From NCBI RefSeq assembly GCF_963678975.1, contig NC_089274.1:26015053-26079052 (forward strand): DNA of 64,000 nt, given 5' to 3'. Within the stretch, counting starts at the first letter, position 1, and each line of letters begins with the position of its first letter. Position numbers and translations under genes: made by a program. A model generated the notes under the pieces. It did not search any database. It saw nothing but the letters and a program-made list of their open reading frames with translations, and was not told the origin of the DNA. The stretch is from Dysidea avara (taxonomy: Eukaryota; Porifera; Demospongiae; Dictyoceratida; Dysideidae). Shown in pieces: positions 21,381-60,128 of this stretch.

Positions 21381-21830
21381 GATAACCTCCATCCACCTGC
21401 AGACTTACTGGAGACCAGCATAAGGCAATTTGAAGAGGTGGGAAATCAACCTATTTCAGGCCCCCAGCACCACAGCTCACCCCTAGTGTAAGTAGCAGAG
21501 GGTCTTCCGATCCTCCCCACCAGCATTATCAAGCAGATACAACGGGGAGACTATTGCTGACCTCCCCCTTGCAAGGGTACTTTCTGTACTATTTCCAAGA
21601 GCATGGAGGGCCAAGTGGTATGGCTAAATATGCGTGTTGTTGTGTGTCCCAAACGCCTACCCCAAGACTTTCAGACTTGGGTGCAATGCTCTGGGCTATA
21701 CTCAGCAGTGGTGGCGCAAACTCAGCCACACAGAATACCCGACCTCATGGCTCATCAATGCAATATCATGTGGTACCTGGCCAGCTGAAACTATAAGGAA
21801 CTGTCCAGATCTGTAGGAATTGGTGATGTA
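21381..21830 (+). pseudogene. DIRS-like retroelement, gag-like remnant
   Basis: Stop-interrupted + frames include EGLPILPTSIIKQIQRGDY and a later segment with NALGYTQQWW. These resemble the N-terminal ORF of DIRS-type retrotransposons, where a similar 'GLPPIP ... I..GEY' segment precedes pol. It probably belongs with the DIRS pol remnant at 24.5 kb, making the gypsy remnant a nested insertion. The family match is from memory. Confidence 0.45.
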
Positions 21831-22069
21831 CATGACTTCGCAGGATGTTTGCCCAGGATGCTGGTGGTGCCATTGCACATGATGTTGACTGGTGCTCAAT
21901 AGAATGGCAGAATTTACAACAAAGTTCCACTTGATCTTTCCTCATTGACATACGTAAAATACTCAGCATATAGGCCTTTATCTGCCTTAGCCCAGGATGA
22001 GCCTGGGTTAAGGTCTTTGGCTTGGCGGTAGTTGGTGTTGTAGATGACCCAAGAGGACCAGAGATATTT

Positions 22070-24300
22070 TAATGAATATTAAGAAAGATGTGAAGCAGTT
22101 TTGTAAACCATGCCCATGAGTGCCAAGTTGTTGGGAAATCAAATCAGAGTATACCAGTTACACCTCTGAAGCCAATTCCTGTGGTAGAAGAACTGTTCAG
22201 CCAAGTGATTGTAGATTGTGTGGGGCCACTACCATGTACCAAAGCAGGTAACCAGTATCTGCTTACAATAATGTGCGCTTCAACTAGATTTCCTGACGCC
22301 ATCCCCCTTAGAAACATCAAGGCCAAGAAAATAGTTAGTGCCCTCATCAAGTTTTTACACTGATGTGTCTTCCAAGGTCAATTCAATCCGACCAAGGGTC
22401 AAACTTTATGTCTGGTTTGTTCCAGCAGGTTATGCATCAACTGGGTATCAAGCAATTTAAATCTAATGCTTACCTCCCGGAGTCACCAGGAGCCTTGGAA
22501 CGATTCCACCAGACCCTCAAGAATATGATGAGAACATACTGTTTGAAGGAAGAGAAGGAATGGGATGAAGGGGGTGCACTTACTACTATTTGCCGTCTGT
22601 GAATCCATACAAGAATCATCAGGGTTTAGTCCCTTTGAGCTTGTATTCAGAAGAGTAGTCTGAGGACCATTGAAGTTACTGAAGGAGATATGGGTGGCTG
22701 AGAACATTCACTCGAACATTTTAGTATCTGATCTCCATGACAGATTATCTACAGCAGCACAACTAGCCCAGATGAATTTGAAAGATGCCCAAGGTTGTAT
22801 GAAGCGATGGTATGCCAAGCATGCACGGTCAAGAACTTTTAAACCAGGGAACAACGTGTTAGTCCTCCTACCCATTCATCACCACCCACTACAGGCAAGG
22901 TACTGTGGCCCATATGTAATAGAGAAGAAGCTTAATGAGGTAGATTATGTCGTTTACATGCCGGATCATTGTAAACAGCCAAGGGTTTGCCACATTAATA
23001 TGCTCAAGGAATACCATGACAACTCTTCCTCACCCTCAATAGTGCCAGTGGCCAATGTAGTAGGTCTGAAAGATGACTGTGATAAATGAAGAATTGGTGG
23101 AAGATGTCAGGCTGAAGAATTCGGATGCGTTAGCCAGTTTACACAGTAAACTTGGTCATCTCTCGGTGGAGGAGAGAGACAGTATAGCAAACCTTATTTA
23201 TGAGTTTCCAGAGCCTTTTACTGATGCTCCCAAGAAGACTAATGCTATACAACATGACGTAGATGTGGGAGATGTGAAGCCTTGTAAACAGCACCCATAC
23301 CGGGTGAACCCACCGAGAGCGCAGCATATGGAGAGTGAAATTAAGTACATGTTAGAACATGATATCATTGAACCAAGTAGCAGTGAATGGAGTTCACCGT
23401 GTATGTATATTAGATTCATAAGTTAAATGCTGTGACCAAAACTTGATTCTTTTCTGATTCCTAGAATCAATGACTGCATAGAGAAGATTGGTTGTCAGTA
23501 AGCTGGATCTATTGAAGGGGTACGTATTAAAAGGTCTCACTCACCTCTCGTGCACAAAGGCTGTCAGCATTTGTTACTCCCACAGGATTATACCAATATA
23601 ATAAGGTCACGCCCTTTGGCATGAAGAATGCTCCCACAACTTTTCAGTGACTAATACAGCAGTTCTTTTTTTAACAAGTGATCTTGTTGGTTGTGAGGGA
23701 TACATCAATGATGTTGTAATCTACAGTTCATCCTGGGAGCACCACATGGACCTCCTTCGTCAACTTCTCAGTGGACTGTCACAGGAAAACCTTACCATTA
23801 GCGTGGCCAAAAGTGAGTTTGGGCACTGTCAGTTAACATTGTTGAGACGTGTTGTAGGCCAGGGAAATATTTCTCCTGTAATGGCAAAGGTGGAGGCAGT
23901 TACTCGTTTTCCTGTACCCAGTAACAAAAGAGAGCTAATAATGTTTTTGGGTATGGCTGGGGAGTTTTGACCATTATGTTAGCTATTTAAAAAAAAAGAA
24001 ATCTGATGAGCATCAAAAGAGGTATTCCACTATTGAGAAAGAAACTCTAGGTCTTATGTTGGCTTTGAGTCACTTTGATGTGTATTTGAATCCTACAGTT
24101 TTGCCAATAGCAGTGTATACAGACCATAACCCTATCGTGCTCATCAATAAAATGAAGGACAAAAACCAGCAATTGTTGCGTTAGAGTCTAAACCTTCAGC
24201 AGTATAATGTAGACATCTATCATATTAGAGGCAAAGAAAACATTATCACCGATGTCTTATCGAGAGTTTTGATTTGAACACTGACTGTATTATATAGTTT
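22070..24300 (+). pseudogene. Ty3/gypsy retroelement remnant with integrase before reverse transcriptase (Gmr1-like)
   Basis: Going 5' to 3' on the + strand: an integrase zinc-finger remnant (CKPC ... C, 22,090-22,130); the integrase core (VIVDCVGPLP at 22,205, SDQGSNFMSG at 22,385, GALERFHQ at 22,490, giving D, D and E); an integrase C-terminal region with GPYVI and CHINMLKEYH (22,670-23,010); a linker; the RT N-terminal region (PFTDAP, then EPSSSEWSSPC, 23,210-23,400); RT palm remnants (GYINDVVIYSS, 23,697); and RNase H (YSTIEKETLGL, VYTDHNP, 24,025-24,260). This IN-RT-RH order is the reverse of usual Ty3/gypsy and matches the Gmr1 group. It is dead: several frameshifts and stops, and YIND in place of Y.DD at the RT active site. 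No long terminal repeats were matched. A purine run (AAGAGGGGAGG) at about 24,398-24,408 may be the polypurine tract. Confidence 0.8.
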
Positions 24301-24509
24301 AATAGTTTCACTTTGTGGGTTTGTAATTAGGCTTGTAGGATCTTTTTTGTTGACAATGTAATTTTATTTAAAAGTTTCTGTAACTGCTCTGCTTTTTAAG
24401 AGGGGAGGCGTCATGGTGTGCAATGTTTTGAGTTATACAGTTTGGCATGTGAGTGGACCTTGTGTTGTTGTATTTGCTTAACGTCCGTAACAACAGTCTA
24501 ACCTTCGCT

Positions 24510-25830
24510 CTGTAGCCCAGCACCCAAACGTAATCTCAGAACAAGAAGTGAGGAAAAATCAGGTAGCTGAACTCAGAAGGCACAGACCTACCCCTTACCT
24601 GGGGCTGCAGATCAGCCCACTTGGTGTGGTCCCATAAAAGGAAAAATTCAACAAGTGGAGGATGATTATGGACCTATCCTTCCCTCAGGGTCATAGTGCA
24701 AATGATGGCATCACTAAAGAGAGCTACAACTTCCACTACACATCCATCAATGAGGCAGCAGAACAAATCCCAGCATTTGGTTCAGGTATCTTAATGGTAA
24801 AGATGGACTTTTTGTAACATCTCTGCAGCCCCAGAGGACAGGCACCTTTTCTGGAATGTCTTGGGATGGTCATTTGTCTGTGGATAGAGTAGCCCCATTA
24901 CTATTTTCAGCCATTGCTGACACACTTCTATATATCATGCTCGATAATGGAGTGTCTTGGGAAATACACTACCTGGATGACTTTATTACCATTGGTGCCC
25001 CAGATTCCCCAGAATGTTTCAGAACATGCAAACCATGCAAGCAATCTGTAGAGAGACGGGCCTGCCACTGGAACCTGAGAAGACTGTGGGTCCCACTACT
25101 ACACTGACATTCCTGGGGATTGAAATTAACTCAGTGTCACTTCAACTCTGTCTTCCACATGACAAGTTAGTGGATCTCACAGAATCCCTCACCCAATGGC
25201 AAGAGAAGACTTCCGCAAAAAGCGTGACCACTTGTCACTTATAGGGTCGCTTTCCCATGTGAACAAGGTTGTTTATGCAAGCAGGGTATTTTTATACCGT
25301 CTGATAGACCTCTCCACTACAGTACACAACCCAGAGTATGTTATATGCCGAAGCCCGCTCTGACATTGAGTGGTGGTATCAATTCATTGAGGTGCATTCG
25401 CTACTCTGATCACAGATGCCTCTGGAGATTGGGGGTGTGGTGCCTATGTGGATACATCCTGGTTTCAACTTCACTGCGCTGGACACCTAACTGATGCTCA
25501 CGTCTCTGTGAAGGAATTAGTTCCCATTGTTATTGCAGTAGTGATCTGGGGTCACAAATGGGTCGGGAAAGCTATCCTGGTCCAGTTGGACAACACAACT
25601 ACAGTTGTGGCTGTCAACAGTCATAGCAGTCAGCACAAGGATACAGTGCACATGTTACACTGTCTGACATTCCTCATGGCAGTGCTGTTTGATCGCTGAG
25701 CACCTATCAGGGAGTAATAATGCTATTGCTGATGCTTTGTCACGAAATAATCTGACTCACTTTCAACCACTGTTCCCACAGGGAGCACCAGAGCCAAAAT
25801 ACCATGTCTACAGCAAGTATTTAGGGGTAT
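24510..25830 (+). pseudogene. DIRS-like retroelement RT and RNase H remnant
   Basis: Broken + frames carry LQISPLGVVP, then KWRMIMDLSFPQG and NDGI (RT start, about 24,605-24,710), WEIHYLDDFITIG (RT catalytic YLDD, about 24,958-24,996), TLTFLGIEI (about 25,105), LIGSLSHVNKVV (about 25,240), an RNase H segment DASGDWGCGAYVD (about 25,410) and ADALSRN (about 25,732). This sequence set is typical of DIRS/Ngaro-type pol. Several frameshifts and stops make it a fossil. Confidence 0.75.
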
Positions 25831-26282
25831 ACGTATCACACAAGCGGCTTCCTCTTCAATGCTTGTACCACAGCAGAGGCTACCCCTCGTACCTGATATC
25901 ATTTGTCAGATTAGACAGACATGGGTGCAGAGAGGATTATAACTAGTCTTTGTTGATCTGACATTATGTCAGATCAAAGTCAAAGCTGATCTGACATTGT
26001 ATGGTAATGCTTAGCAGCATGCATAAGCATACCAACTTGGGGCATACCCCCTGAAAACAAAAATTGGATTTTCAAAGCTTGGATGTGAGTATTTTGACAC
26101 CCAAACTCCTTAGCAGCCATGCACTGTTACATTGGTAAACCACATACATAATAAATCTGTAATAATAACATTATGATGATTTGATATGAAACTATCCAAT
26201 GTGATGTTTTGTGACATGTATCTATATCAGTTATGGTTTTAACTGCAAGACATTTAAAACCCCTTTAGAAACCAATAAGAGA

Positions 26283-42964: not shown

Positions 42965-43435
42965 TATAAACAAGAGTTAATAATTAACTCTTGGTATAAA
43001 TGTAATCAGTGAGGGTTCTTGGTATCCTTTGATCAACATGTATGATTATACCTTAAAACTTCAACTGTGCACATATCATAATTCCTTGCTACACTGTACC
43101 AAAAATTCCTATAGGAGCTATAGAACATCAACAGAGATTATTGTTATATATATATATTATTTATTTGTAATTGCTTCATCATACAATGACGATTATGCAA
43201 TAATTTGTTATATTATGATTTCACAACAGTGTGCATTGAGTGGTACAGCTATACCATAACAAGTACACAGTGCAATTCTATGTGTGTCTACAAAACTAGC
43301 AGGTATACATAGTTAATAGTGTGTAAGGTCGTGACATGTGCATATAATCACATAGGGTGAAAAAGAATAGAAATAAAGATGAATGTATTAGCTTAAGGTA
43401 ATTTGATATACACAGTTAAAAATCTATCGAAGGTT

Positions 43436-45699
43436 CTAATTCAGTGCAGTACCACAATCACATTCTTGGGGATTAGTTACGTTAGTGGCTCGAGCCAAGT
43501 TAAATCTCCAGCATCTTGTTCCATTTGTACTAGGATCATTCTGGGCAAAGCGACACCGATTTTCTTTATTTATTCTTTCATTGAAAGAATCTGCTAAGTT
43601 GCGATTTCCCTCTCTCATTTTCTGGTAAGTAAACAACAACTGCTGAATTCTACCACCTTGCAAAGCAGTCTTTAGTTCTTTTAGTGTTTCATCATCAGGG
43701 TGGTTATAGTATCTGCTGTTAGTGCTGACTACACATACCTCAGTTTTTATCTGAGCAAGAAATTCTCTAGGATTATTGTGTTTTGACCCATGATGTGGCA
43801 TGTCTATGTACTTGAAATTGTAATAACCATTTGGACGTAAATGTTGTGCAAGAGTGGCATTTTCTGCTACTACATTTTGAAGGCCTCTAATAATCTTTCT
43901 TCCTGGTGTATCACCAGTCAATAATGCATATATATACCTTGTGGTCCCACCTTCACTTATTTGACACTCAATAAGAAGAGATGCAGAAGCCCTGTTAGGT
44001 GACGTTAATCTCATTTTGTTAGCAGCAGTTCTACGACTCTTATCAATTGCACTAGGGGTAAGCATAAAAATGCGTAAACCTTGTTTGGTAATGATAGGTG
44101 TGTTTGGGTTAGCAACCAAATCTTCCAATATTAAACCTCTTGGCAGTCTTTCATGAGCAAGATTATACAAACTTTTTCCATTTCGTGGTGATTTGAACCT
44201 TGCAGCAGGATCCTGTGGATGCATGGTATACAGTGTGCCAATTTCAATGGGAATGCTCACATCTTCAAACAATCCCAAAATACCTACAATATGATCATCA
44301 TCATAATGTGTGACAACTACCACGTCAAGGCATTGGTCCATTGGCAGTCGATGGACAGTTTCCCAAAAACAAGGTGGATCTTTTAGAGGACCACCATCAA
44401 CCAACATGTTGAAGTCATTCCAGTGAAATAGAGTACTATCACCATTAGATGCAGGGAACACTATTAGATGAGGGTCATCTATCAAGCACTGTGCAACAGG
44501 TTCTCTAGGCAGTAATCTGAGTGGGGCTGACAATGAAGGTAATTTTGCCTTGTAGTTTTCGATGACTGGATACAATTCAGGAAGAATCCCTGTTGCATAA
44601 AGAGGACCTGCAGAAAAGGGTACTATTGACACTTCGTAGTTCACACAGCCAGTAAATCCTCTGCATTGAATTTGTTGCACTATACTGTAAATTTGTAAGG
44701 TAATAAAGTGGTTTAATTTAACCCAACCACTAAACAACTGGTCATCTTCTGGTTCATTATCAGAAGCAATCTCTATTGCTTTTGAAATAGTATCATTATC
44801 ATCTAGATCACTATAGTCAGTGATAAGAGACTGCAAAATCTCCTTTAGTTCAGTCATTTGTGAGGACAACTCCAAGCTAAGACAGCCAATTAAGAAGTTT
44901 AAGCAATTAATATCTTTCGCAAATCCAAAGCCATAACAACAGTTCAACAAGATATGTATTTTGAGGTAATGCTGTGGCATTACAGCTTTCAGAACTGCTA
45001 GAAGATCAGATCCTGAAAATCTATCATCTCCACGAAGAACCCAGCTACCACTGCCTTTTTCACCATGCCCACTATAAATAAAAGTAAGGGAGATGCCACT
45101 ACACTGTGGTATATATGTAGACAGTACACATTTCAATTTTTCAGCTTTTGGAACCATCAGCAATGTAAAGACACCTTTTTCAGTATGGCACCGACCATAA
45201 CCATTATGCATATGTGAGTCATAAAGCTTTTGCAAATCATTATCTGTGAGGCCAGCAATATGTGCAACAATTTTCACATCCATTTCCAGTTGTTCCTCCA
45301 AACCATTTGCATCACCAACCACCAGCATGTAATGGTGGTAACCAATTTCATGACAGACCACATCGATAGCTCTTGTAGCATCATTATCTACACCAAGAAA
45401 TGAACCATGACGATAGAACACAAATAGTATTTCACTATCCAAAAACTCTGCAATGCATTGCTCAACTTTTATAATATATGGTTTCTCAATGAGACCGTTA
45501 GCCCATTTAATGTTTAGTCTTCTTAATTTTCGTCCTTCAACATGTGTGAAAGAGGCCACTTTAGGAACACACGGATAGTTTCCATGGAGCCTCTCAATAT
45601 TCCCTATACCTGCTTCCATTGATATGACTACAGTGCCAAAGGTAGTTACATCGTTAACAATACTATCAAATATCCTCTGCACATTGTCCTTGTGTTCAT
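43436..45699 (-). CDS. Caspase-like / metallo-beta-lactamase fusion protein (large 3' exon)
   Basis: One uninterrupted frame of about 754 codons on the minus strand. Numbering from the upstream limit of the open frame (45781): an N-terminal region of unknown fold (about 30-150); a caspase-like clan CD domain (about 150-300) with TFIYSGHG (His239) and HILLNCCYGFGF (Cys281/282); a linker; and a metallo-beta-lactamase domain (about 435-700) of ComEC/Rec2 type with ASNGDSTLFHW, MLVDGGP, VVVTHYDDDHIVGIL (H492, D494, D496, H497), LLTGD (622-624) and MPHHGSKHN (H663/664). Both catalytic sets look intact. The C-terminal 80 residues are Asn- and Cys-rich. The frame has no ATG before residue 55; a good acceptor (polypyrimidine, then ATATAG) lies at 45700, so an upstream exon ending in G is expected, but I could not find it. 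Likely a Cys protease effector coupled to a hydrolase; the function is inferred. See findings. Confidence 0.85.
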
Positions 45700-48600
45700 C
45701 TATATAACAGAATAAGCAAACAAAGTATACATTTATTGCTGCAAACACACAGTAACACAAGTAGCATGCATGTACATGCACATGATATGTACAATAAAAT
45801 TAATATATACTAATTGTGGTGCATGCCACTATATTGAATTAAAATTAATTTTGATGTTGGTTGATTTTTTACTGAGGTAAACGTCATCTACACTTTGCAC
45901 CCCATGAAAATTTGTAGAAACTACTACTGTATTGTACCAGTGCAGTAGTACGGATCCCCCCACCCCCCCCCAAAAGTGACATGAAAATGCTGCCTTCAAA
46001 ATCATTCTTTATGGAATAATATTAGTCCATCTAACATCAAATACAGCATTAAAAAAAAACAAGAAAACACTTGCAGTCAGCTGGACATAGAATTTTTCTA
46101 AAAAATCACCGAAACTCAAATGTTTGTCTGCCTGCACAGTTGCAAGGTTGGAAGCCAAATGAAGCAGTGCACAGCCACCATTTTACTCTACAATAACCAA
46201 CTCACCAGTGGCATGTGCCTTTAAGAGTTCCAACGAGTGTGTACCTTCTGTGCCTTGTCTTTTCTATTATCTTCGATCAGGCTGGTTTTCATCCTTCTTC
46301 ATGCAATTAAACCATATTGAGGCATTAATTTTCCCTATCAACATTTTCCTTGAGCAGCATATTAAGACGCTGCAACCTTATTTAAGCGCTATGCTTGGTA
46401 GATACCTGTAACTTTACAATAGGTTCAAGACCACACCTCTTTTAGCTTGTGTGGCTTTTTAAAGTTTGAGTTTTACATGGCTGCTACTAATCCACGGAAC
46501 GGAACAAACCACTAAAACATGGAACAGAAAGATTTTTCAGTACCACTTAATTTTCAATATTATATGACATGTAACTTGTTTATTCTTTGCAAGTGCTACA
46601 CAGTATTGCTGAAAGGCATGGACTGTGGCTTCAAGGCAGTGAAATACAGTTGCATATGCCCAGAGTTATGTGGAAATTCTGAGAACACAAGAAGCGTCCA
46701 CGCTACTTTTGAAAATCAAGGGGTAGTCACTACCAATAGCCCTGTAGAACCATCTGCAACTGGGATCAAGGTTTTTGATCGATGAAAATGTATCTTGATT
46801 GCTTGATTTCGCCTGAAAAAGTGCCTCGATTGCTTGACAATGTAACAAATATTTTCGTAAATTCTTGTTTTGTTTTCAAGCTAGCTTGATCGCCACTTTC
46901 AAGGACTACTTGATAGCCTGTGAATACAGGGAGTCAGAAACATGTAACTAAAACATGAAGAATGCTGAAAAAAGTATATAATAACATGGAATAATGATGA
47001 AGTTTGCCTACCACTTTCAGAGTGAACAGGACTGTAAACTGGTACCATAGAATCTATGCCGGTACTGATACTAATCAAAGTGGCCCAACCATAGGTTATA
47101 GGAGGTCCTTACAGCCTAGTCTCGCACGCTGACAATTGTACTTCTCCTTAAACAAGGAGACAAGGACAGATGCAGGTGCATGCACGCGCACACTCTAGGA
47201 GTCCATGTTTGAATAACATGGCATGTGAGGCGGATTAAAAAGTCTATTATTGTTTTCAGTCATAGCTTACTTATAAACCAGTAATATTGTCGTGCTCTTC
47301 TCACAGGAAGAGTCACAAGGGAAGTCTGTTCATGAATGGAAACAAAGATTGTATCGTTTTGCAGTATGAGAAAAAAAATTGGCAGGGGTGAGAAGCCCCC
47401 TAAAGACTCACAATGGGACGGGTTTGTCCCAGTCACAAAGACCAGAGTAAAGAATGCATTTGACAGTACCATCAGCTTGTAAGCAGCATTTTGTATGGGG
47501 CCCTATAAATCATGCATATAAATCTGTGTGTGTATGTAGCTATCTCTCTGTGTAGTCACAAAGCCAGCCTACATACCCTTCTTCTTTTACCAGTCAATCT
47601 ATTGGTCACGTTGGACCTTTCATATGTATACTGCTACAATATTTTGTCAGTAATCATATACCTCCCCTCCCATTCCAGCCACTGTTGTCCATTATAGCTG
47701 GCTACTACATACTACACTTGTTCTTCAATACCTCCTCCTTGTTAGTGATGCTACAGAAAGGCTGTGCATGTGAGTGAACCAACAGAATTACTAAGAACAC
47801 ATTGTAGTGTGTTGTCTACATTAGTGGTATCCCCCAAAGTGGTGGCGGGAAAGGTAATTCACCAAGTCGGAGTTTCCATCCTATGTTACAGGATACCCAA
47901 GAGTCTTTAGTTACCCCTACTGTTCCCATTGCAATCGTGACTGCCACAAGTGTCACCATGCTGTTACTGTCTGCTTTTACCTATAGCTAGGCCTGAGCCT
48001 ATTATGCTCAAAATTTTACCTATTATTCTTTCCAGAATTTCCCCAAAAATTCTCCTATTATTCTTTTTGTTATTCTTGTATCCAGCCTATTATTCCATAA
48101 TTATTCTCATTCAATATATATCTGTGGCTAGTCGCTTAGTTTTCAAGATGCTGCTATAAGTGGTTTTGTCCAAATTATTAATAGCCATATATGAAGCATT
48201 CCACCTTACACATTATTTTTCTATCCATAATAGTTACAGCAGACTTAGAATAGCTATCTACAGTAATAATTGAAGTGTATTTAATTATTAGTGTATTATA
48301 ATAATATGCTGTATCTACTTTATAGCTACTAAGTTAGGTAGATAATAATGCTCAAAGACTTGAAGAAGATACACTGGTATAAGATGTACAAGTTTCAGAA
48401 TTGCAGATAATCATGCAATTAAATCGCTGATGCTGGCTGCAGATTATTAACATGAAATGATCTGACTTCTCTATTAGAGTATTTGAGCGTTCTATTAGAG
48501 TATATCGATCTTTTAGAGGCTTTTCAGCTCCTTTCAGCCAGCACTCCTGTCAGCTTTATATCATTTGTAGTAGCTTAACTCTTTCTTCTAGGTAATCAAG

Positions 48601-51057
48601 AAGAGACACGCCCCCTAATTCCACCGATTATTCCCATGGTCGTCCGATTATTCTAAAATTATGCCTATAACCATCCTATTATTCCGGAATTATTCTCATG
48701 AAATTGGTGACCTATTATTCTCAAGATTATGCCGGCATAATAGGCGCAGGCCTACCTATAGCTCTGCAGCAGTGAAATTGGTTAGTCAGTGTGCCAGATT
48801 CCTGATGACTAACCCAGTTGTTATCAGTTTATCTGTGACCTTATAGGATGTTGCATTGCTATAATTACAAAAGAATTAGCCTATAAAATTCATACAACTA
48901 AAGTATCGTCATACATGCAAAAATTAACAGAGCAAGTATGTAAGTGTACGTGTCGTATAGCTACAGACAACATTTTGGAGTTCTCAATAATTCTACCTCA
49001 AACTCATGTCTTCACACATCTAAATTCTGTGGCAACCACAAAAGATTTAGGGCATAAAACTGTTAATTTTGTGTGCCCAATTAACTAACTATATATTGAT
49101 TCATAAAAGATTTCCGACCCATGTAAGTGCAATCTGTATTGATAAAATGCACTGTAACAAAGTGTTCCCAGACATTACCCCATATATTGAGCAACTCATA
49201 ACCATAGTAACTCAAAGGCACCGTACCCAATCTTTTAATCTAGCTCATGTGCTGCACCCCAAGTGTTACTATGCTGCTTTCTGCCCTAGTTCACAGGGAA
49301 CTTGGTCTGTGCAGGAGTAATGGAAAATAGCAACATTTCAAGCACAATTATGACATCTTAGAAACACTAAATCTTTCTACAGTGACAAATTGAGACTACT
49401 TGTAGAGAGTGTAGCTAAGTTCTATGCCATGAAGGCACAATATAAAATTCTAAAGCACAACTTTGTTCTTAAATCTGTAGGGCTTTGTTGAGGTATAGTA
49501 TAGTGGCTAGGACTTGGTTGTTAGAAAAAGTGGTCTAATTGCTGACCAAAAAGCAGTACTACAAGACACTACACCAGTTATTCAGTTAGTCAACAGCCTG
49601 GGCATGTTGTCAATTGCTGCATTGTTGGATCGAATATTATTTAGAGATTAGCCCTGTCAGGGGGCTATGGGCCAACTGTAGTGTACTGACTACCGGTAAT
49701 GAACACACTCCTCAACATTGAAATGTCGTTAATAGAATATCACCCTCCTGGAACCCAGTAATGTCTAAACACATACAGCTGCAGCACTCAGGCTATGGAA
49801 CAAAGACTCCTAGGTAGTATATACAATGTCAGACTCTCATGAATAATAGCAATGTAATTGTAGTAGTAATACCCTTCTGCATATTACACAAAACCAACTT
49901 ACAGTATGAATAGCAGTCACACTTTACTTGTCAAATATTCATGATGCAGGTTTCCATTATGCCCGTGCCAGTTTAGATTTACAAAATTATTTTATATTGA
50001 CCTGCAAATATCAAGTTTAGAGTAGCATTATTGAAATATCAGAAATTAATTATCGCATAGCTCCACCATTACGTGAGTAATGTTCATCATAAGTAACAGC
50101 TGCAAGGTACAATCTGTGAAGTGCAAATGGGTTTCAGCTTTGCTTATTTATGTTGGTAGTCTGCTTGCAGATCCCATGAGGATAGCAAGAAATAAAAATC
50201 AGACCAAGGCCAACCGAGCTCTTCCCCCAGTAGGTTTGAGTGAGTCCTGTCAAGAGGTGATAAACCAGTTGTTAAACCACCAGCAGGGAAGCCCTTCTAA
50301 ACAATAAAGAATAACCCCCTCCTGGCAACAACAACATACTGGCTGCACAGTGCCTGTAGCTCTCCAGCTGCATAAGTCCCCAAGGCAAAATCTGGGGAAA
50401 GCCCTTCAAATAAGTATTAGCACTGCCTACCCACACTAGTTGTCTCCTGGAGACAGCAGAAACGAGCCATATATGGTCCACCAAGAGGTAAGTATGAACG
50501 GGGCTCTATCAAGGGATTATAGACTGGCTGTACAAGTTTAACCGAGCTTCCTAAATAGGGGAATGATAAAGTAACACTCTCTTGGTACAAGTTTTATCAT
50601 AGATAATATAGGATGTACCTATAGTTCAAATGGAGTCCTGTCGAGTGGTTATAAACCTGGCTGTATGTACTGAACCACCAGCAAAAACAGCACTACCAGA
50701 GTGTAATAAAATACAAACCCTTCATATGTTTTCTGTATCAGCTGCACAGCAGCTATAGCATTTTAGCTGAAAGACTCTTTTTCTTGAGTCCTTGTCAACC
50801 TCACATTGCAACAGCTTTGTGTGCCAGCTACATGGCAACTGAATCTTTCGGGCTGCTGGGACTAAATCCAAGCCCCTTTTAACTTTACACCCTTCATGTT
50901 GTAATGGCTTTGTGTACTGGCTGCACGGCAGCTCTCAAGCTACTAGGCACTGGCTAAATCTGAGCCCTGGTCAACTTTACACCCTTCACATTGTGATGGC
51001 TTTGTGCACTGGCTGCACGACAGCTGCAGCTTTTGGGCTGCTAGACACTTTCCAAAA
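45700..51057. other. Largely gene-free DNA upstream of the caspase-MBL exon
   Basis: The missing 5' exon(s) of the caspase-MBL gene should lie here. Short open frames at 46,519-46,785 and 47,260-47,472 have no recognised domain. It contains a MULE-like element (47,989), poly-C/A tracts near 45,957-45,972, and a tandem repeat at 50.7 kb. Confidence 0.45.
47989..48753. mobile_element. MULE-like element with 10-bp TSD
   Basis: The ends are AGGCCTGAGCCTATTATGC and, reversed, AGGCCTGCGCCTATTATGC. It is flanked by ACCTATAGCT on both sides (47979-47988 and 48754-48763). The inside is built from 'CCTATTATTC' and 'TAATTATTCTCA' words and contains two copies of the TCTATTAGAGTAT motif near 48,470-48,512. 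It is related to the element at 61199. Confidence 0.85.
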
Positions 51058-51065
51058 CTAAATCC
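50710..51065. repeat. Degenerate tandem repeat, unit about 100 bp
   Basis: About four units share words such as CTTTGTG.ACTGGCTGCA, CGGCAGCT and TTTACACCCTTCA. The last unit runs into the final exon of the small minus-strand gene (stop at 51058). Confidence 0.7.
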
Positions 51066-54000
51066 GAGCCGAAATATGCCGAGCAAGGAGCTCCAGCACT
51101 TCCTTATGTGACAATAGAGCGGTAACACCTGACATCACAGTAGTTACATAATCACTTCCGCAGGGCAGAAAATGTACACATACCATTGGAGCTTGAGTTT
51201 ACTTCACCTCGAGTTTGTTGAAACCGTCTTTCTAAAAGTGACCACGTTATCAAGAGGAAGGAAGAGAGTAGTGCAAGAGATATTTAAGTAGCGCAGGTTA
51301 ATCTGATCCTTGCTGGGCAAGTTACTGCTGATAATTGGCAAAAATGCATGGGCACAAGGATTTTGACACCATGCCAGCTGCACAAGACAAGATTGTTTAC
51401 TTGTATTTTATATTGTAAAGAGCATGGCATGTGTTTTATATTAATAGTCCAGCGCCTAAGCCAAATATTCATTCACTTTTTGATAAAAGCACCAATTTTT
51501 TTTACAGAGTATATGGAGCATGCACTAAGTGTTTTAAGAAGGGGAGGCACGTAAAAAGTCCTCAGGAACACCCCTTTTTGCACCCTGACAAGAAAACTAT
51601 TTGTTACTATTTAAAATCAATCATGTTTCTATCAAGTTAACTGCTGGGCCTAATATCATAGTAGTACAAAGCATACAGCTGGAACATAATAGCCTATTAG
51701 TAATCTATAAAAAACAAATAGTTTTCTCACCTAGGCAGTAAACAAAATCGCTAAAATTTCCATTTGCAGGGATTCTGTTAAAGTTTTGGACCTTTAATGC
51801 TGACGATTGTGTAGTACTATATACAAGGATCATCCTGATGTGTATCGTTTCTTTATTAAAGGGGTATAACAAAAGTTATGTAATGCTAAAGTCACAGGTG
51901 GATATCTCAACAGAAAACCATGAACAACAACAGTTCAATTATCAAGCACAGAGCTTGGACAAAAGGTCCCTTGTCCTTATACTGGGCACCATATGAAAGG
52001 TAATTAAATTTCTAGTTTAATGAAGGCAGTTGCAAGTTGTTTCAACATCTTGTTCTCAAGTTACAGCGCTTTCAATTCAGTGTAATATCATCAGCAAGAA
52101 AAGCACAAGGATGTGTCATAAGGTACTTTTTAGTGCTCAAAATATCACTTCATTGGAACCCAGCTCCTTTATGCTTATTTTGAGCATCAGCAGAGCACTA
52201 AGAAATACCTTAATACTCATCTGTGTGCTTTTCTTGCTTATGCTATATTACACTGAATTGAAAGCACTGTAACTTTGAGAACAAACAACTTGCACCTGCC
52301 TTCAATAAACTAGAAATTTAATTACCTTTCATATGGCGCCCAGTATAAGGACAAGGGTCCTTTTGTTCAAGCTCTGTGCTTGATAATTGAACTGCTGTAG
52401 TTCATGGTATTCTGTTGAGATATCCACCTGTGACCTATTAAAACTTTAGCATTAAATAACTTTTGTTATACCCCTTTAATAAAGAATACACATCAGGATG
52501 ATCCTTGTATATAGTACTACACAATCGTCAGCATTGAAGGTCCAAAACTTTAACAGAATCCCTGCAAATGGAAATTTTAGTGATTTTGTTTACTGCCTAG
52601 GTGAGAAAACTATTTGTTTTTTTATAGATTACTAATAGGCTATTATGTTCCAGCTGTATGCTTTGTACTACTATGATACTAGGCCCAGCAGTTAACTTGA
52701 TAGAAACATGATTGATTTTTAATAGTAACAAATAGTTTTCTTGTCAGTGTGCAAAAAGGGGTGTTCCTGAGGACTTTTTACGTGCCTCCCCTTCTTAAAA
52801 CACTTAGTGCATGCTCCATATACTCTGTAAAAAAATTGGTGCTTTTATCAAAAAGTGAACTTACTTGTAATCTTGTTATTAACGTGTAAAGTGGCCTCTC
52901 GCTCTCCTGCAGTCACTTCACGGACATTCACTAATCTTCTCCTTCACGCAATCTGTAATTAAGCAAGGGTGTAGTACTGGGTGTTATTATAGAATTACAC
53001 GTATGGTCAAGTCATGAGCACAAACGGGGCACAACGATTATACGTTTGTGCCTTCGTTCACAGGCGAATCGATCCCCAGTTAGTTTATGTCTCTAGGCCT
53101 CGTAGTTTTCTCAAACATTAATTATTTATTTATGACGTAATTTTAACCACGTTTCGTATTATTCTTAGTGCTTGGTTGTATAATCATATATTCCAATACA
53201 GCAACTTAATGATGTCACACATCGCTGATTGAATATTCTTGTTACTTATAACCCCATATAATAGATAGCTAATAAGTCATTCTCATAAAAATGTTTAAGG
53301 TATGTGCTTAATGTATGTATTTAAAGTATACAACCTGTACATGCATATGTGAACACATTGCAAACCTATGCATGACTGTAGCTAATAGCTAGCTATAAAA
53401 TGATACAACAACAACAATAAACTCCCTTTGAGAAATACCACCAATAAGCTAACAGTGAAGTGCTAATGCACCTATCAATGTCACGCCCCACCTATCCCAG
53501 TGGGTGGGGGTTTCGTCACCCTAACTTGTCCCGGCATTTGCAATGCAGATAACTATACTGTTAGCATGTGTTAGTGATTCCCGAGATAAATAGTACGAAT
53601 TGGTAGGAGATTTGTAACTCAAAGTTGTCCCTAGGGGTAGGGAATTTGTCGTCTGGCTTTTGCAAATCTCCAATAAATCCCCACCTCTGCCCAACAGGGG
53701 CATGACATTGATAGGTGCATAATCATCCAGTACTTGTAACAAAGCAAGAAATAATTAAGCATAAAACATAGCTAATATTAATTAAATATTCAACTTTAAC
53801 GATATGGATATCAATTCTCTGTAACAAAAAAGTAGTTCTTTTCCTTCCCGTTTTTCTCATCAGTTTTCTTTCTCTCCCTGGAGAAATACCAAAAACAAGC
53901 TTCTTGCATGGCCAGACCACTTTTTCTCCCACGGCGCTTAGTGTTTGCTCGAAAAAGGATCAGGTCCACATAGGCATAGGAAGCGGGGGGGGGGGGGGCT

Positions 54001-57000
54001 GTGGGGGATATAGTCCCCCCCCCCCCCCAATAATTTCGCTAACCATTTCAAGTTATCTCTTAAGTACTCAACAATCTACCTATCACCAACAATTCAGATT
54101 ACCATATAATCACCTTTTTAACCAATCAGCAATCCATAAAGTAGTTATGAAACTATCTACCTGCAAACTCAACTCCTTAGCAACACTTTAGAGTGATGAT
54201 CGTGATAACCACTCTAAAATTAATTTTTGTGTTCAGAAGTGTTGTTTGTATTGGACATAAAGGTAATGTACACAAGTAAGTATACAATACTAGCATGATT
54301 TTTACTGCTAAAAATACACTGAATTTCAATTTCAGAGCATCAGTTTTTAATTTTTCTGTGGGGGCATGCCCCCAGACTCCCTAGTTTAGCAGGCTTCCTC
54401 ACATGCTTTGCATATTCAACCATCATTTTATCTTTACCATTGCCTAGCCCCCCCCAACCACACGGTACTAGCTATGTCTGAGGTTTTGTTACCATATAGT
54501 AAAAAACTTTGGCAAGTAACTAACATTATAATTGCCAAAGTTTTTCCCACTAATTATTTTTAGCAGTCACATGAGCAGATCATAGCTATGTTGAAAGGAT
54601 AGGTATCGAAGTATCGTGACAGGTATCGTGGGTATTTCTCCAAGCGTTCCCTTCGATTATTGCGAGGGTCATTGTCCCTCAAGAGTTCACGAAAATGCAA
54701 ACATCACTCTTGACTAGCTAGATATGGGTATACTCAAAGGCCTGCGGCCTAACCTATAGCAGACTGGTATGGTAACCGCCCATTCAGTAATAATAAAAAT
54801 AATGACATTTAGAACCAGCGAATGATGCTTAGGCCACTCCAAGAAAATTCATTGTTTCCCATTTCCCACCTGCATGCAGATTTGCATGGTCATTCATGTC
54901 AACCAAACATTTTATTCATTATTAAATTTATCCTGTGATCGATTGCATAGCAGTAACCAGTTTAGCATTCAGAAAGCCCATTTAGCTAGCTTTTCACTGT
55001 TCAGGTTCTTAGCTTTCTAGCTACTGTGTTTTTACCTGTTAGTTATGAATTTCAAAACTTAGTGGAAATATCTATAATGAATCCTGATAATGAATAATGG
55101 ATAATGAACCACCCACCCGCATGTATTTTTGAAGTCAATGAAATGAGAAACAAGGAATTTTCTTGGAGTGGCCTTACACTTGTATGGTAGCTACCACTCA
55201 AATGTAAAGACTCGCTAATTAAGGGGTGTGGCAGCCGTTTCCATCGTGAGTTGTCATCCTAGAGGAACAAAGACTTGCGATCGAAATGGCTGTCATGCCC
55301 CTTAATGTTAATCACTCGCACCATAGATAACATATACCTTACTATGCTCACACTCGCATGTACCGATGTTGTATTCGAGCGGTACAGTATGCAGTAGCTA
55401 AAAAATTTCAGGTGAAGCCCCATTTGCCAAAGTTTTTTTTGTCAATTTTGCAATAGTGGGTTTTTGCCAAACTTTTTTACTGCCAATTTTTTTACTAAAT
55501 GGTATTGTTACACAAGTGTTTGCATCAGCAAGTCGTTCTCAGCACCATTCTCAATGTTTCTATATGATCGAATAGTGCACACAAAAAAAAATTTGGCAGT
55601 TGCTATTGTTCCGGCAGTCACGTGAATAAAAAAGGTCCTCAAATGAAAATATAAAAACACAAAATATAAAAACACAAAATCCTTGAGTGGGAATTAAACA
55701 CAGGACCTCCAGTGTTTGAGCCTAGAGTCTTAGCCATTGTGCTATGTGGCTCCCAGCTACATAACTCCTTAGTTTCTACCTTATATGTCTCCAAGTGGAG
55801 TGACTTCTATATATATATATAGGCAGTGGTTACTGAACCGAAAGTCGGTTCAATAAATCGGACTCACTATTGAACCGACAGTAAAACTTAGACAAAAAAG
55901 GGTCACTAAATGACAGACAAAAAAAAAACAAAAAAAAACTTAACCTGGGTTCAAACCCTGGACTACTGGAACTGTAGGCAGTGGGCTTACCACTGTGCTA
56001 CCACTGCTAACTACCCACTACCCCTACTTTTCTACCTTATAAATGCTGTAGTCTCACTATGTATAGTAAGAACATAATCTAAAGCTGAAGAAAGAAACCA
56101 AAGCTGAACCTAACGTTAATGCTACTTTTTGCATCCCCTAAAGTCGAATGCTCGGGGCAACTACTAGACGCAAAAAAAACCTTTCGGTTCAGTAACTACT
56201 TCCACATCAGTCTCGTGGCGCCCGACCCTAAAAAGAGAGTCTGGTGAAACTGTGTAACAAAAAGTTTGAACTCTGGAATGTTTATTGGATGACGTTTTAC
56301 GTGTTACGTAAGTGCACTGTTTGCGTCACAACATCCATCCAACCAGATCCACTTACAGCATCACCAAACTAATAGCGCTACTTTATTTATTCAACATTAA
56401 AACAAACCCAACAGAATTGTATGGCTGTTTTCTCAATGAGTTTAAGCGGTAGAGTCACCGGATGTAATTAACCGTAAGCCCCGAATCTTTTGAAATGTAC
56501 GTACGCATTACATAATCAATTTGAAATGGAGCGATCTGATTGGAGCTTCCAACATTCCGGCAGCGCCAAACTTTTTGTACACAGTTTCACCAGACCCTCT
56601 TTTTAGGGTCGGGCGCCGCGAGACTACTTCCACATATATATGTTGAAGGTGAAGAAGAAACCAAACCTGAACCCTAACGCTAATACTACTTTTCGCACCC
56701 CCTAAAGTTGAAGCTCGGGACAACCTACTAGATGCGTAGTCTCGTCCTCGCAGACCCTTCTCTCCGGGGTGGCACTTATCGATTAGAGATTATAAGCGCC
56801 CCCTTCGAGAGGGCGCTTATAATCTCTAATCGATAAGCGCCACCCCGGAGAGAAGGGTCTGCGAGGACGAGACTACTAGATGCGTGCCCTAAAGTTGATC
56901 ACTCGGGGCATAGCATACAACTAGTGTGCCTGATAGTGAGAAATCTATAGTGGACTGCCGGAACAATAGCCCTGACAAAATAGCTAGCAATTTCGAAAAA

Positions 57001-57129
57001 ATTATGTACTAACTAACCAAGCTCGGACTCCAACTGTAAGGCCTGTTTAAGTTCAGCGACTTTTGTGTAAAACATATCAGCTTGTTTTCGGGATGACTGA
57101 TCGTTGATCCTCAGACTTGAGAGCGCCAT
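51058..57129 (-). CDS. Predicted 90-residue alpha-helical protein (4 exons)
   Basis: Exons on the minus strand: 57129-57018, 52906-52865, 51231-51184 and 51128-51058. Every intron is phase 1 with GT-AG borders (GTTAGT, GTAAGT and GTATGT donors; CTGCAG, TTTTAG and GTCAG acceptors), and the total is exactly 91 codons including the stop. The protein begins MALSSLRIND, has a charged helical segment (YTKVAELKQALQLESEL), then HVNNKITKRRFQQTRGEV, and ends LSHKEVLELLARHISARI. No signal peptide or membrane segment. I do not recognise the family. The start has a good context; the first donor is weak. The first intron holds most of the MITEs of this region and the second holds a 1.39 kb palindrome. It could also be a fortuitous chain, but matching phases at three junctions argue against that. 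Confidence 0.5.
51472..52859. repeat. 1.39 kb palindrome (arms about 690 bp)
   Basis: Left and right halves are inverted copies with small differences, centred near 52,165; both ends read TTCACTTTTTGATAAAAGC in opposite directions. No terminal duplication or transposase was recognised. It fills intron 2 of the predicted small gene, its right end lying a few bases from the exon's donor. Confidence 0.93.
53467..53719. mobile_element. Harbinger-like MITE with 3-bp TAA duplication
   Basis: Inverted ends are TGCACCTATCAATGTCA and the complement, flanked by TAA on both sides. It is 253 bp long, with 'GGTGGGG' and 'CCCCACC' words inside. A degraded relative lies at about 59,136-59,388. Confidence 0.75.
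53983..54029. repeat. Poly-G and poly-C tracts
   Basis: A G-run (about 53,983-53,998) and a C-run (about 54,015-54,029) face each other across 16 bp and can form a hairpin or G-quadruplex. Their length is probably unstable. Confidence 0.85.
54832..55173. mobile_element. Harbinger-like MITE with 3-bp TTA duplication
   Basis: Inverted ends are GGCCACTCCAAGAAAATTC and the complement, flanked by TTA on both sides. It is 342 bp long, with no transposase. Confidence 0.75.
55664..55760 (-). repeat. tRNA-derived repeat, degenerate
   Basis: On the minus strand, TAGCACAATGGCTAAGA resembles a tRNA A box and GTGTTTAATTCCC a weak B box. Probably a SINE remnant. Confidence 0.35.
55834..56202. mobile_element. 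MITE with ends AGTGGTTACTGAACCGAAAG
   Basis: The left end AGTGGTTACTGAACCGAAAG is matched by the complement near 56,180-56,202. No clean TSD. It contains the tRNA-like segment at 55.94 kb. A stretch of about 85 bp (56,085-56,170) is repeated directly at 56,648-56,736, on the other side of the element at 56208. Confidence 0.6.
55935..56012 (-). repeat. tRNA-like sequence (SINE head or tRNA pseudogene)
   Basis: On the minus strand, TAGCACAGTGGTAAG fits a pol III A box and GGTTTGAACCC fits a B box, about 33 bases apart. The acceptor stem does not pair well. It lies inside the MITE at 55,834-56,202. Confidence 0.45.
56208..56626. mobile_element. MULE-like MITE, TAGTCTCG family, 9-bp TSD (419 bp)
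   Basis: Inverted ends of about 60 bp, starting CAGTCTCGTGGCGCCCGACC and ending GCGCCGCGAGACTA. It is flanked by CTTCCACAT at 56199-56207 and 56627-56635. Confidence 0.9.
56737..56875. mobile_element. Near-perfect hairpin element, TAGTCTCG family, 9-bp TSD (139 bp)
   Basis: The arms of about 66 bp are complementary with a single visible mismatch; ends are TAGTCTCGTCCTCGCAGACC and its complement. It is flanked by CTAGATGCG at 56728-56736 and 56876-56884. The near-perfect arms suggest a recent insertion. Confidence 0.92.
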
Positions 57130-57252
57130 CGATAGACCACTTCCGGCGGGAGTGGTACATAGTCTAGTCTCGTGCCCAACCGGGCCCACGCTAATACAGG
57201 AACACATCATTGGACCATAGATATATTATCTATGGTATATCTATGATTGAAC

Positions 57253-57301
57253 CATAGATATTAGAGGCGCGTAAGCGCCTTACGCGCCTCTAATATCTAT
57301 G
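57253..57301. repeat. Short GC-rich hairpin
   Basis: CATAGATATTAGAGGCGCG and its complement face each other around GTAAGCGCCTTA. It adjoins an AT palindrome at 57,211-57,233. Confidence 0.7.
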
Positions 57302-57711
57302 AACATTTATATTATAATATAGTGAAAGTTTTCAGCTGTTAAAAATTATTATAGTCTATAGAGAGAGAGATAAACGTAATAATAATTGACAATTACATGA
57401 ACAAATAATTACAAGGGGTCAGGAGTCCAGTCTCAGGGTTACCAAGTTATTACTAAAAAGTATGGAGCCCTGGCAAGACCAAAAAAAAAAAAAACTACAT
57501 ACAAAACTAAACAATTATACATGGTTTCTCAACAGGTAAACAGATCAACTACATCCCAAGTAGTGGAAGCACGGGAATTAAAGATCCTATATGAACAGGA
57601 GATTGCAACACGAGCTGCTTACTGAAGAATACAACGACTGAATAGTATTCTTCGGTAGATGGCATACCATCGCTTGCTATGTAACAAATGGAGTCAGTAC
57701 TCAGTAGGCCT

Positions 57712-57853
57712 TAGTCTCGCATAGCCAGACTCTATTTCTCCGCACGGCGCTTATCGATTAGAAATTTATAAGCGCCTGCTCCGAAAGTGCTTATAATTTC
57801 CAATCGATAAGCGCCGTGCGGAGAAATATATAGGGTCTGGCTACGCGAGACTA
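57712..57853. mobile_element. Hairpin element, TAGTCTCG family, 9-bp TSD (142 bp)
   Basis: The ends are TAGTCTCGCATAGCCAGAC and GTCTGGCTACGCGAGACTA, flanked by AGTAGGCCT at 57703-57711 and 57854-57862. The inner part shares 'CTTATCGATTAGA' and 'TTATAAGCGCC' words with the element at 56737. Confidence 0.92.
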
Positions 57854-58042
57854 AGTAGGCCTAGGTTTATGATTTCTGGTCACAAGCCATATAGTTATTT
57901 CAAATAATCAGGGGCGGATCCAGGAGCTAGGGGAGGGGCACAAACAGGCTAAGTTGTAGGTGGCTGGGGAGAGCCAGAATCTCTTGTTAGTTGCTACATT
58001 TTTGGAGCAGCAAATAATCACCTCGCAGCTAGTTTAACTATA

Positions 58043-58235
58043 CCATACGCAAGGAAATTTTGACGTCAAAAAAATTTGACTAATTCAGACTTCAGCAGAT
58101 TTGACGAATAAAATGTTGACGAAAATGAAGAAATTGTAGGCCGGGGCAAAACCTGTACTTTTAAGGACGCTTGGGCTAAACATTTGACGAATTTAAATTT
58201 GACGAATACCGAAATTCGAATTTCCTTGCGTACGG
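58043..58235. mobile_element. 193 bp MITE with TA duplication
   Basis: The ends are CCATACGCAAGGAAATTTTG and AATTTCCTTGCGTACGG, flanked by TA. It is a longer relative of the element at 29015-29112, with 'TTTGACGAA' repeated inside. Confidence 0.85.
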
Positions 58236-58239
58236 TAGC

Positions 58240-60128
58240 TCGCTTTAGTTTCAGGTGAATTTGTAATAAATCTAGTAAAATGTGCATATTTTCATGAGTT
58301 TTCAGTATGAACTCAGTGATCCGCTTGGCCTGACAAAGTTTAGTATCTGATTTTAATCACTATAGACTGAAGTATGGCTGGCTCCTCCACAAAGTGAGGG
58401 GGGGGGATTTTCCCCAAATGCCCCATCCTGGATCCGTAATTGATAATAGATCAGTTAGATTAATAACAAACCAAAGTACTGCATTGTCAGTAGACATGCC
58501 GGCATGCCAATACCTTCTAACCATGTAGCTAAGCCATAAATAAGTAAAAGCCAAAATCTGAGCAACAGATATGGCTTAAGTAAACACTAAAAATAACGTA
58601 ACTAATACAAGACTGTAGTTAGCTACAATAGCTAGCTAGCAGCAAGCTACAAAACACATGAATGTGAATTGATACAGTTAGTTACCGGCAGTGGCAGTGC
58701 ATGCATTCCACAATTTAATTAATGCTGGGTGGAAGCTTAAGCTGAACTGCAAACATAGCTACAGGCGTCCTTAATTGTACTATGAGGAGGTTCTATCAAA
58801 AATAATAGCTGGAATACATTTATACTGATGTATTGATGAGACCTTGAACATCATGATAGTAATTTGAACTGAATGAAGACATGGAAGTATGATAGCAGCA
58901 ACCATTGTATTAATCACTGAATAAGGCTGCATGGCAAATCACTGCTTTTACTTTATATTCTTGGCAAGGAGTAGTTTTGTTTTGAATAAATTAGCTAGCC
59001 AAAAATCTAGCTATGCTCTTGATCATAATACCAGTCGCCAAAAATCCTGGAGCCGCCTATGTATATGGTACATGTGTATGTAGTTTATATTTCACTTCTT
59101 GCCATGCCCACATGGGTGTTTTAACGCTGCTCAGTGGTGTCAATGTCATGCCCCATCTACCCCAGATCAGGCAGAGGCGGGGATTTGGAAGAGTTGTTTG
59201 ACTAATTCCCCACCCCTGCAGCTGGGGACAGCTTTGTGTTACAAATCTCCATATATTTGCCATGGAAATCACTAATGGTATGCCTAAATTTGTTACAAAT
59301 GCCCCTCTACCCTGGGGAGCAAAAATCAGTAGACAAATCCTCACCTGCTGCCCAACCTGGGGTAGGGGAGGCATGACAATGATGGGTGCAAAATGATGCC
59401 TTTCACTATCTGCATGTAGGTTTTAAGGGTTGGAAGTCACTTTGACCCAACTAGCTTGCCTTGAACTCATCAAAAACTTACCTTCAGTTTATACAAATGG
59501 TGTGCTTGATAATTTAGTTGTTCTGGTTGGTGTCAATAGCAATTGGTGGTGTTATTGTCACTGACAGTTGACATCAATAGCTGCTGTGTATGTTTATATT
59601 CTATTCCACTGTTTACTGCATAACTGTTCTGATTGCGTACTTGAACTTAGAGTATATTAGCTATGAACTTTCTTCTATAGTTTCCCAGTCGTGGAAGAAA
59701 ACCATAACACTTGTCCCTTTTCAGTCTCAGACTCCCAACAGCATGCATGGAGTACTGTAGTAAATATAGCCACTACGTATGTAGCTATGGCCATATTAAG
59801 AGTTGGAGGAGAGTTTTTTATGCTGGATTCACAACTGCTTTTGTTCAGTCTTGTTGGACGTTATTTATCATATTGTTTGCTTTGACACTAAAAACTTTGT
59901 TGTCAGGTGTTCCATTCCAGCAGTACAATCCAGTGATTAAAATGTTACAGTATACTTCTTAGTTATGTGCATGCCAATCTCTTAACACATTCGGCAATAA
60001 TTTCACACTAAATTAATGAGACAAAGTAATAGAGGCTGCATAAAATGTAGCCGGCAGCTTATATATAACAAGTTAACAAATAGCTGTGCTAAGCTAGTAG
60101 TGTATCAGTTGCACATATAAGTTGTTCC
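58240..60128. other. Gene-free DNA downstream of the fibrinogen-like gene
   Basis: No convincing exon. It contains a degraded Harbinger-like relative at about 59,136-59,388 (GGCATGACAATGATGGGTGC at its right end). Confidence 0.5.

Follow-up and report, generated by a model that had tools for sequence, protein, structure and literature searches.

Can one exon of a sponge encode both a caspase-like protease and a nuclease-type metallo-beta-lactamase (MBL), and if so, does it belong to the animal, what might it do and where could it have come from? The question was raised by a first-pass annotation of 64,000 nt of Dysidea avara DNA (assembly GCF_963678975.1, NC_089274.1, forward strand, 26,015,053-26,079,052; this whole stretch is the window, and its numbering is used throughout), which proposed a death or defence effector acquired from bacteria, or an ancient immune fusion. 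In the following, fusion protein and fusion gene refer to the 753-residue product of exon 43436-45699 (minus strand) and to its gene. That interpretation was partly supported: the MBL falls into a defence family and such MBLs are paired with proteases in bacteria, but a recent bacterial transfer is disfavoured and the caspase fold is not demonstrated.

The sequence comparisons and the analogy with bacterial systems point to a single-chain caspase-like/MBL protein in an animal, which is probably a protease-activated nuclease. It is known from bacteria that partner proteases, caspases included, activate gated MBL nucleases, as described in 2025 (PMC12799240); the new element here is the fusion in one chain of two enzymes that bacteria keep as separate partners. 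If our reading is true, the presence in an animal chromosome of a fusion whose two active sites are intact would extend this mechanism to immunity or cell death in animals, and the MAP1 family would gain a testable ancestry from an immune effector.

The fusion exon and its genomic setting

The host assembly comprises 550.8 Mb in 108 contigs; the window belongs to C3, a contig of 50.3 Mb, and is located at 26.0 Mb (C3:26,015,053-26,079,052). The stop-to-stop frame of the fusion gene extends over 787 codons (43436-45799, minus); the exon begins at a predicted phase-1 acceptor (TTATATAG|AT, at 45699, minus) and ends with a TAG stop at 43438-43436. The first reading of SGHG, NCC and an entire ComEC-type MBL motif set in one exon was confirmed: the metal motifs HxDxDH, D, HHGS and HP form a full set, with DGG at residues 434-436 and HP at 666-667 in addition to the features of Table 1.

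Table 1. Features of the fusion gene (window numbering; residues are those of the fusion protein)
Feature	Position	Strand	Basis
Main (last) coding exon, 753 residues + TAG	43436..45699	-	frame; predicted phase-1 acceptor at 5' end
Caspase-like (clan CD) core, residues 120-275	44873..45340	-	hhalign to five bacterial C14; predicted strand/helix order, low confidence
His211, candidate catalytic His of YSGHG	45065..45067	-	sequence; kept in paralog; alignment to bacterial C14
Cys254, candidate catalytic Cys of LLNCC	44936..44938	-	kept in paralog (LLNSC); aligned with DCC/DAC of bacterial C14
Acidic linker, residues 292-323, after candidate Cys; possible processing segment	44729..44824	-	sequence; role inferred
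MBL nuclease-like domain, residues about 405-735	43493..44485	-	profile matches and fold search
HYDDDH metal motif, residues 464-469	44291..44308	-	H464, D466, D468, H469 invariant in 41-row alignment
Candidate gating insertion 1, residues 519-532	44102..44143	-	pLDDT block 521-530 = 61; inferred
Candidate gating insertion 2, residues 549-567, directly before invariant N568	43997..44053	-	pLDDT blocks 60 and 55; residues 559-565 < 50; inferred
TGD motif, residues 594-596	43910..43918	-	D596 invariant in 41 rows
HHGS motif, residues 635-638	43784..43795	-	H635, H636 invariant in 41 rows
AATAAA, possible poly(A) signal, 273 bases beyond stop	43160..43165	-	sequence alone

When the genome was searched with the fusion protein, six stretches were obtained: the gene itself, an intact paralog on contig C13 and, on C10, four fragments of a broken copy. 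The paralog has 46% identity over residues 57-752 and no stops, and it has kept all motifs save the first Cys of NCC (replaced by Ser) and the middle Asp of HYDDDH (replaced by Ala); its exon also starts at a predicted phase-1 acceptor, not more than two residues from the matching place. Over 715 aligned codons the two genes share 45% identity with an NG86 dN of 0.50 and a dS of 1.52, the latter near saturation, which corresponds to a dN/dS of about 0.33. The third copy (G000:C10:13032065-13033792) has decayed, with an in-frame TGA, frame changes and a substituted last His of HxDxDH. A comparison of the window frames at 45691-60000 with the 10 kb upstream of the paralog and with the C10 stretch, in search of a 5' exon, gave chance-level tblastn matches only.

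Since an intact paralog, the dN/dS, the setting in a 50.3-Mb contig and the acceptor phase agree in this respect, the fusion gene is a real animal gene under purifying selection and not a chance frame. Bacterial contamination, which the first-pass annotation named as a refuting finding, is ruled out by the contig context, the intact and decayed copies and the phase-1 acceptor shared with the intact paralog. Other frames of the window also fit an animal, namely a CTU1-like gene (Pfam ATP_bind_3 and zn-ribbon_14), a FAD_binding_4 exon and collagen-like frames. A cathepsin exon containing Ser (locus L104), considered as a possible silicatein marker of sponges, matched cathepsin L best, and a cathepsin/silicatein chimera came further down.

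The metallo-beta-lactamase half and its bacterial partners

In the Pfam search of the fusion exon the MBL was recognised and no caspase: MBL_MAP1B matched at 4.3e-12, Lactamase_B at 1.4e-4, slightly below its cut-off. The PADLOC profiles LmuA (1.1e-27), RTasMBL (2.1e-24) and Avs1a (5.1e-17) each matched in two stretches, one for each half of the MBL. By these sequence matches the MBL is a member of the Avs1a/LmuA family of anti-phage proteins; it is not an Avs1a proper, because the NCBIfam Avs1a model (E 1.7e-22) gave 79.7 bits against an equivalog cut-off of 420. A match to poxin was a chance one (E 0.47) and was rejected. The fold search rows cover residues 401-753, the MBL part of the protein, and the MBL shares fold and motif set with that of ComEC/Rec2 (9ic4), which is, in contrast, a competence protein without a protease.

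The distance between HxDxDH and HHGS is 171 residues in the fusion protein and 178 in the paralog, compared to 127 in 9ic4 (counted from the alignment), i.e. 44 fewer than in the fusion protein, and 201-228 in the eight bacterial rows linked to a caspase or CHAT. It could be measured in 69 of the 80 bacterial loci, where the median is 220 and seven are short (122-143). The insertions are shorter than in the gated bacterial rows. In the model, low-confidence loops at about 519-532 and 549-567 sit between the two motifs, and pLDDT has another dip (68) at residues 491-500.

A scan of species genomes gave 108 MBL relatives, the best 80 of which were kept as loci, and in none of these 80 was a fused caspase detected by a screen for a GHG motif upstream of HxDxDH. 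From the 289 neighbour ORFs of the 80 loci 56 rows (55 distinct) were selected; Pfam recognised 19 subtilases (Peptidase_S8), 5 CHAT, 3 Trypsin_2 and 2 C14 domains among them, and PADLOC the LmuA, Avs1b, HamA, RT and IetS families. In three further loci (L051, L052, L062) the second ORF upstream of the MBL encodes a C14 caspase; in a Rhizobium locus (L055) a C14 domain was recognised upstream of the MBL and a caspase-type motif pair was seen downstream. One relative was found on a plasmid in the plasmid collection; the phage collection held no relative of the fusion protein, and the viral contigs none with the fusion protein as query and one weak MBL with an MBL-weighted alignment. The plasmid relative, from Rhizobium (L010, 2234-8788), is an MBL encoded next to a FRG-pYEATS protein, a subtilase and a SIR2-like protein, in what looks like a nuclease-protease defence island.

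In the published account of such pairs (Tuck and colleagues 2025, PMC12799240) the MBL is a gated pro-DNase that is activated by proteolysis: in Hachiman and AVAST a trypsin-like protease opens it, and in canu a caspase complex is the activator. The abortive antiviral systems with MBL-protease pairs include AVAST 1, Lamassu, Hachiman, RT systems and canu. The words sponge and metazoa have zero occurrences in the main text of that paper, and the available text of an eLife 2020 paper on conflict systems (PMC7159879) mentions caspases and has no match for MBL. The Avs1a, LmuA, HamM and RT-associated MBLs are of the same family as that of the fusion protein; unlike there, they are described as separate genes, the trypsin-like partner being fused to a defence enzyme.

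The closest counterpart is canu of Klebsiella aerogenes (CanA caspase, CanB and CanC, a gated MBL pro-nuclease), where, according to PMC12799240, a caspase-family protease precedes a homologous MBL nuclease, the order that the caspase-like domain and the MBL have in the fusion protein. The canu components are however separate genes and include CanB and an Ig-like domain (no Pfam match for the latter in the fusion exon), whereas the fusion protein is one chain in an animal, with shorter MBL insertions and an MBL that does not group with the caspase-linked rows.

The caspase-like half and a proposed activation

The N-terminal domain was named caspase-like and not a C14 member, since Peptidase C14 (PF00656) did not score above its cut-off; no C14 or CHAT row was obtained for the caspase crop at E up to 10, and the fusion gene is absent from the 89 stretches of the host genome that match the caspase family at E <= 0.001. 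Of these 89, 31 form a 0.4-Mb cluster on another contig (G000:C9:3,098,607-3,500,234).

In profile comparison against five bacterial C14 sequences from MBL loci the caspase core reached an hhalign score of 25.93, with SGHG on AGHG and NCC on DCC/DAC, a score attained by none of 200 permuted C14 profiles and none of 400 permuted animal profiles, and an automatic alignment to the bacterial caspases also paired these motifs. The two L055 sequences alone gave E 0.0095 in register; the other three alone did not reach significance (E 0.74), even with SGHG in register. The comparison with CHAT was near chance (17 of 200 permutations as high). CHAT and C14 are a distant pair of one clan. Compared with each other as a control they gave 14.2 only, so the method misses distant kin.

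A structure model of low confidence predicts the order strand-helix, then strand 201-208 followed by SGHG and strand 244-251 followed by NCC. In the caspase part of this first model pLDDT is 25-80, mostly under 55, and a second model of the region, given bacterial caspase rows, had pLDDT 40; the best PDB sequence match of the crop was a chance one (E 0.83). A caspase fold is therefore not demonstrated: its support consists of motif order and profile comparison, without a confident model or Pfam match. On the same sequence evidence we consider the caspase-like reading of the N-terminal domain likely. As to the match with C14/CHAT-type folds that the first-pass annotation wished to see checked, the profile comparison with C14 supports it (0 of 400 permutations); those with CHAT and Pfam do not, and the models are too weak.

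Two domains, intact catalytic-type residues, purifying selection and the family membership of the MBL are established. As to their function, we favour, with a probability of roughly 0.55, a single-chain protease/pro-nuclease, in which a caspase-like domain would be joined to a ComEC-type MBL DNase of a family paired with proteases in bacteria. Short disordered loops close to the active site might keep the MBL inactive; the signal would come from a sensor acting upstream or from oligomerisation, to which the N-terminal region and a 5' exon outside the current model may contribute. It would switch on the caspase-like domain, which could then cut, in cis or in trans, the acidic linker, the loops or both, and the released MBL would degrade DNA, by which the cell would be killed or arrested. 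Gating and proteolytic activation are taken from the bacterial relatives, and that the fusion protein acts likewise, with DNA as substrate, is what we infer; all steps beyond two domains with intact motifs stay conditional, since they are drawn from those relatives. Literature searches covering few subscription journals found no paper pairing caspase-nuclease with metazoa, or MAP1S with caspase-like.

The MAP1 heads and the origin of the fusion

The best Pfam match of the MBL leads to the MAP1 family, microtubule proteins of nerve cells with a link to autophagy. The fusion protein scored 46.1 bits with MBL_MAP1B (cut-off 37.6), and in the genome search the gene (48.7 bits) and the paralog (38.5) were above the cut-off and the broken copy below it, these being the sole matches reported for the genome; 14 control genomes gave a single match, in Bacillus subtilis, below cut-off. 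Of 41 MBLs, five matched at E <= 0.01, the fusion protein best. Conversely, a profile of the MAP1B/MAP1S MBL (first 98 residues) ranked the gene and the paralog first and second of 83, with 38.8 and 34.3 bits compared to 22.3 for the best bacterium.

An alignment of the N-terminal MAP1 head with the caspase core, spanning first strand to Cys, scored 21.0 in hhalign, which permutations reached in 0 of 400 and 2 of 400 cases. The similarity was weaker with other crops (2 of 300 and 17 of 300), and at default settings only the first strand was aligned (19 columns). With full-length MAP1 (probability 96.9) the MBL half was clear and the N-terminal half was in a register other than that of MAFFT. 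A gapless scan over 49 columns gave 7.0 for MAP1S (1 of 123,378 decoy positions and 11 of 2000 shuffles as high) and 4.7 for MAP1B (8 of 123,378; 48 of 2000); it was not convincing at 40 and 46 columns, where some best placements lay elsewhere in MAP1, and it is weak evidence, since among the decoys its profile failed to rank true caspases first (one CHAT protein was third at 63 columns). The Pfam model MAPB1_N matched the paralog crop at E 0.053, and neither the fusion-protein crop nor, at E 1, the full-length paralog; its genome matches were below cut-off, including a leucine-rich-repeat frame at E 0.76 that was taken as noise. A repeat frame of 3127 codons without stops, leucine-rich-repeat-like by eye, was noted at G000:C6:27653755-27654030.

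The MAP1A/MAP1B/MAP1S head (MAPB1_N plus MBL_MAP1B) thus shares the domain order of the fusion protein, with an MBL match above cut-off and an alignable N-domain. The fusion protein keeps what MAP1 lacks: in the MAFFT and hhalign alignments MAP1B has TGQC and MAP1S has AGPC in place of SGHG, which removes the His; where the fusion protein has HxDxDH, the MAP1 sequences read THIGDDN or THAGADS and lack the first Asp and the last His. We know of no accepted origin of the MAP1 head. On these alignments we propose, tentatively, that MAP1A, MAP1B and MAP1S may descend from an animal caspase-nuclease cell-suicide effector, their head being a dead caspase plus a dead MBL nuclease and the fusion gene representing the ancestral enzyme, in which neither active site has been lost; the gene would then be a testable candidate for a living ancestor-type of the head. 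The MBL domains of MAP1A, MAP1B and MAP1S have been counted among putative nucleases in the text of a 2024 paper (PMC11377751).

Trees per domain had been suggested as a check, and the MBL tree (78 of 83 available rows, near-copies and short rows dropped) placed the animal pair beside a subtilase (S8)-linked clade (support 97/89), away from the caspase-linked rows. The stem of the pair is 2.54 changes per column, and since long stems are easily misplaced this position is unsure. The MBL was not found among the caspase-linked nucleases as a canu member would be, and the fusion protein was consequently not filed as one; the fusion may have arisen independently or may be old.

Three other explanations have to be weighed. 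The first domain could be another alpha/beta fold in which SGHG and NCC occur by chance, the protein being an MBL hydrolase (nuclease or phosphodiesterase) with an unrelated regulatory N-terminus; the lack of a Pfam C14/CHAT match, the low confidence of the models and the chance-level PDB match speak for it, but the His after strand 201-208 and the Cys after strand 244-251 are both kept in the paralog, the score against bacterial C14 was not reached in 400 permutations and protease neighbours recur beside this MBL family, so that we regard it as unlikely. It is likewise improbable that the gene is primarily this animal's representative of the MAP1 lineage, coding for a protein of the cytoskeleton or an adaptor which has kept the catalytic residues for structure or another reaction and is no death effector. 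The three MBL_MAP1B places in the genome, the first and second rank with the MAP1B/MAP1S profile and the N-domain similarity would suit such a protein; the metal ligands and the dyad are however intact in two paralogs, while MAP1 has lost ligands and the SGHG His. MAP1 proteins carry long microtubule-binding regions, and the exon, which continues for no more than about 20 residues past the MBL, contains no MAP1-like tail.

A recent horizontal transfer of a bacterial caspase-nuclease fusion, the origin for which the first annotation had taken the scarcity of introns as support, appears very improbable. The large intronless exon would fit it, as would the finding that, in the prokaryotic and viral collections searched, the MBL relatives apart from MAP1 were bacteria, one plasmid and one viral contig only. 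It is opposed by the motif screen of 80 bacterial loci, by the phase-1 acceptor common to two diverged paralogs together with the decayed third copy, by the long stem outside the bacterial clades and by the MAP1 link. The single-chain protease/pro-nuclease therefore remains our preferred reading.

Elsewhere in the window three near-alike frames of 252 codons (1095-1853, 4288-5046 and 15416-16174) combine a collagen stretch with a cysteine-rich C-terminus, the first copy only matching Pfam Collagen, at 1.3e-4 and below cut-off, and broken frames at about 21400-25950 resemble, by eye, pieces of a retroelement polymerase.
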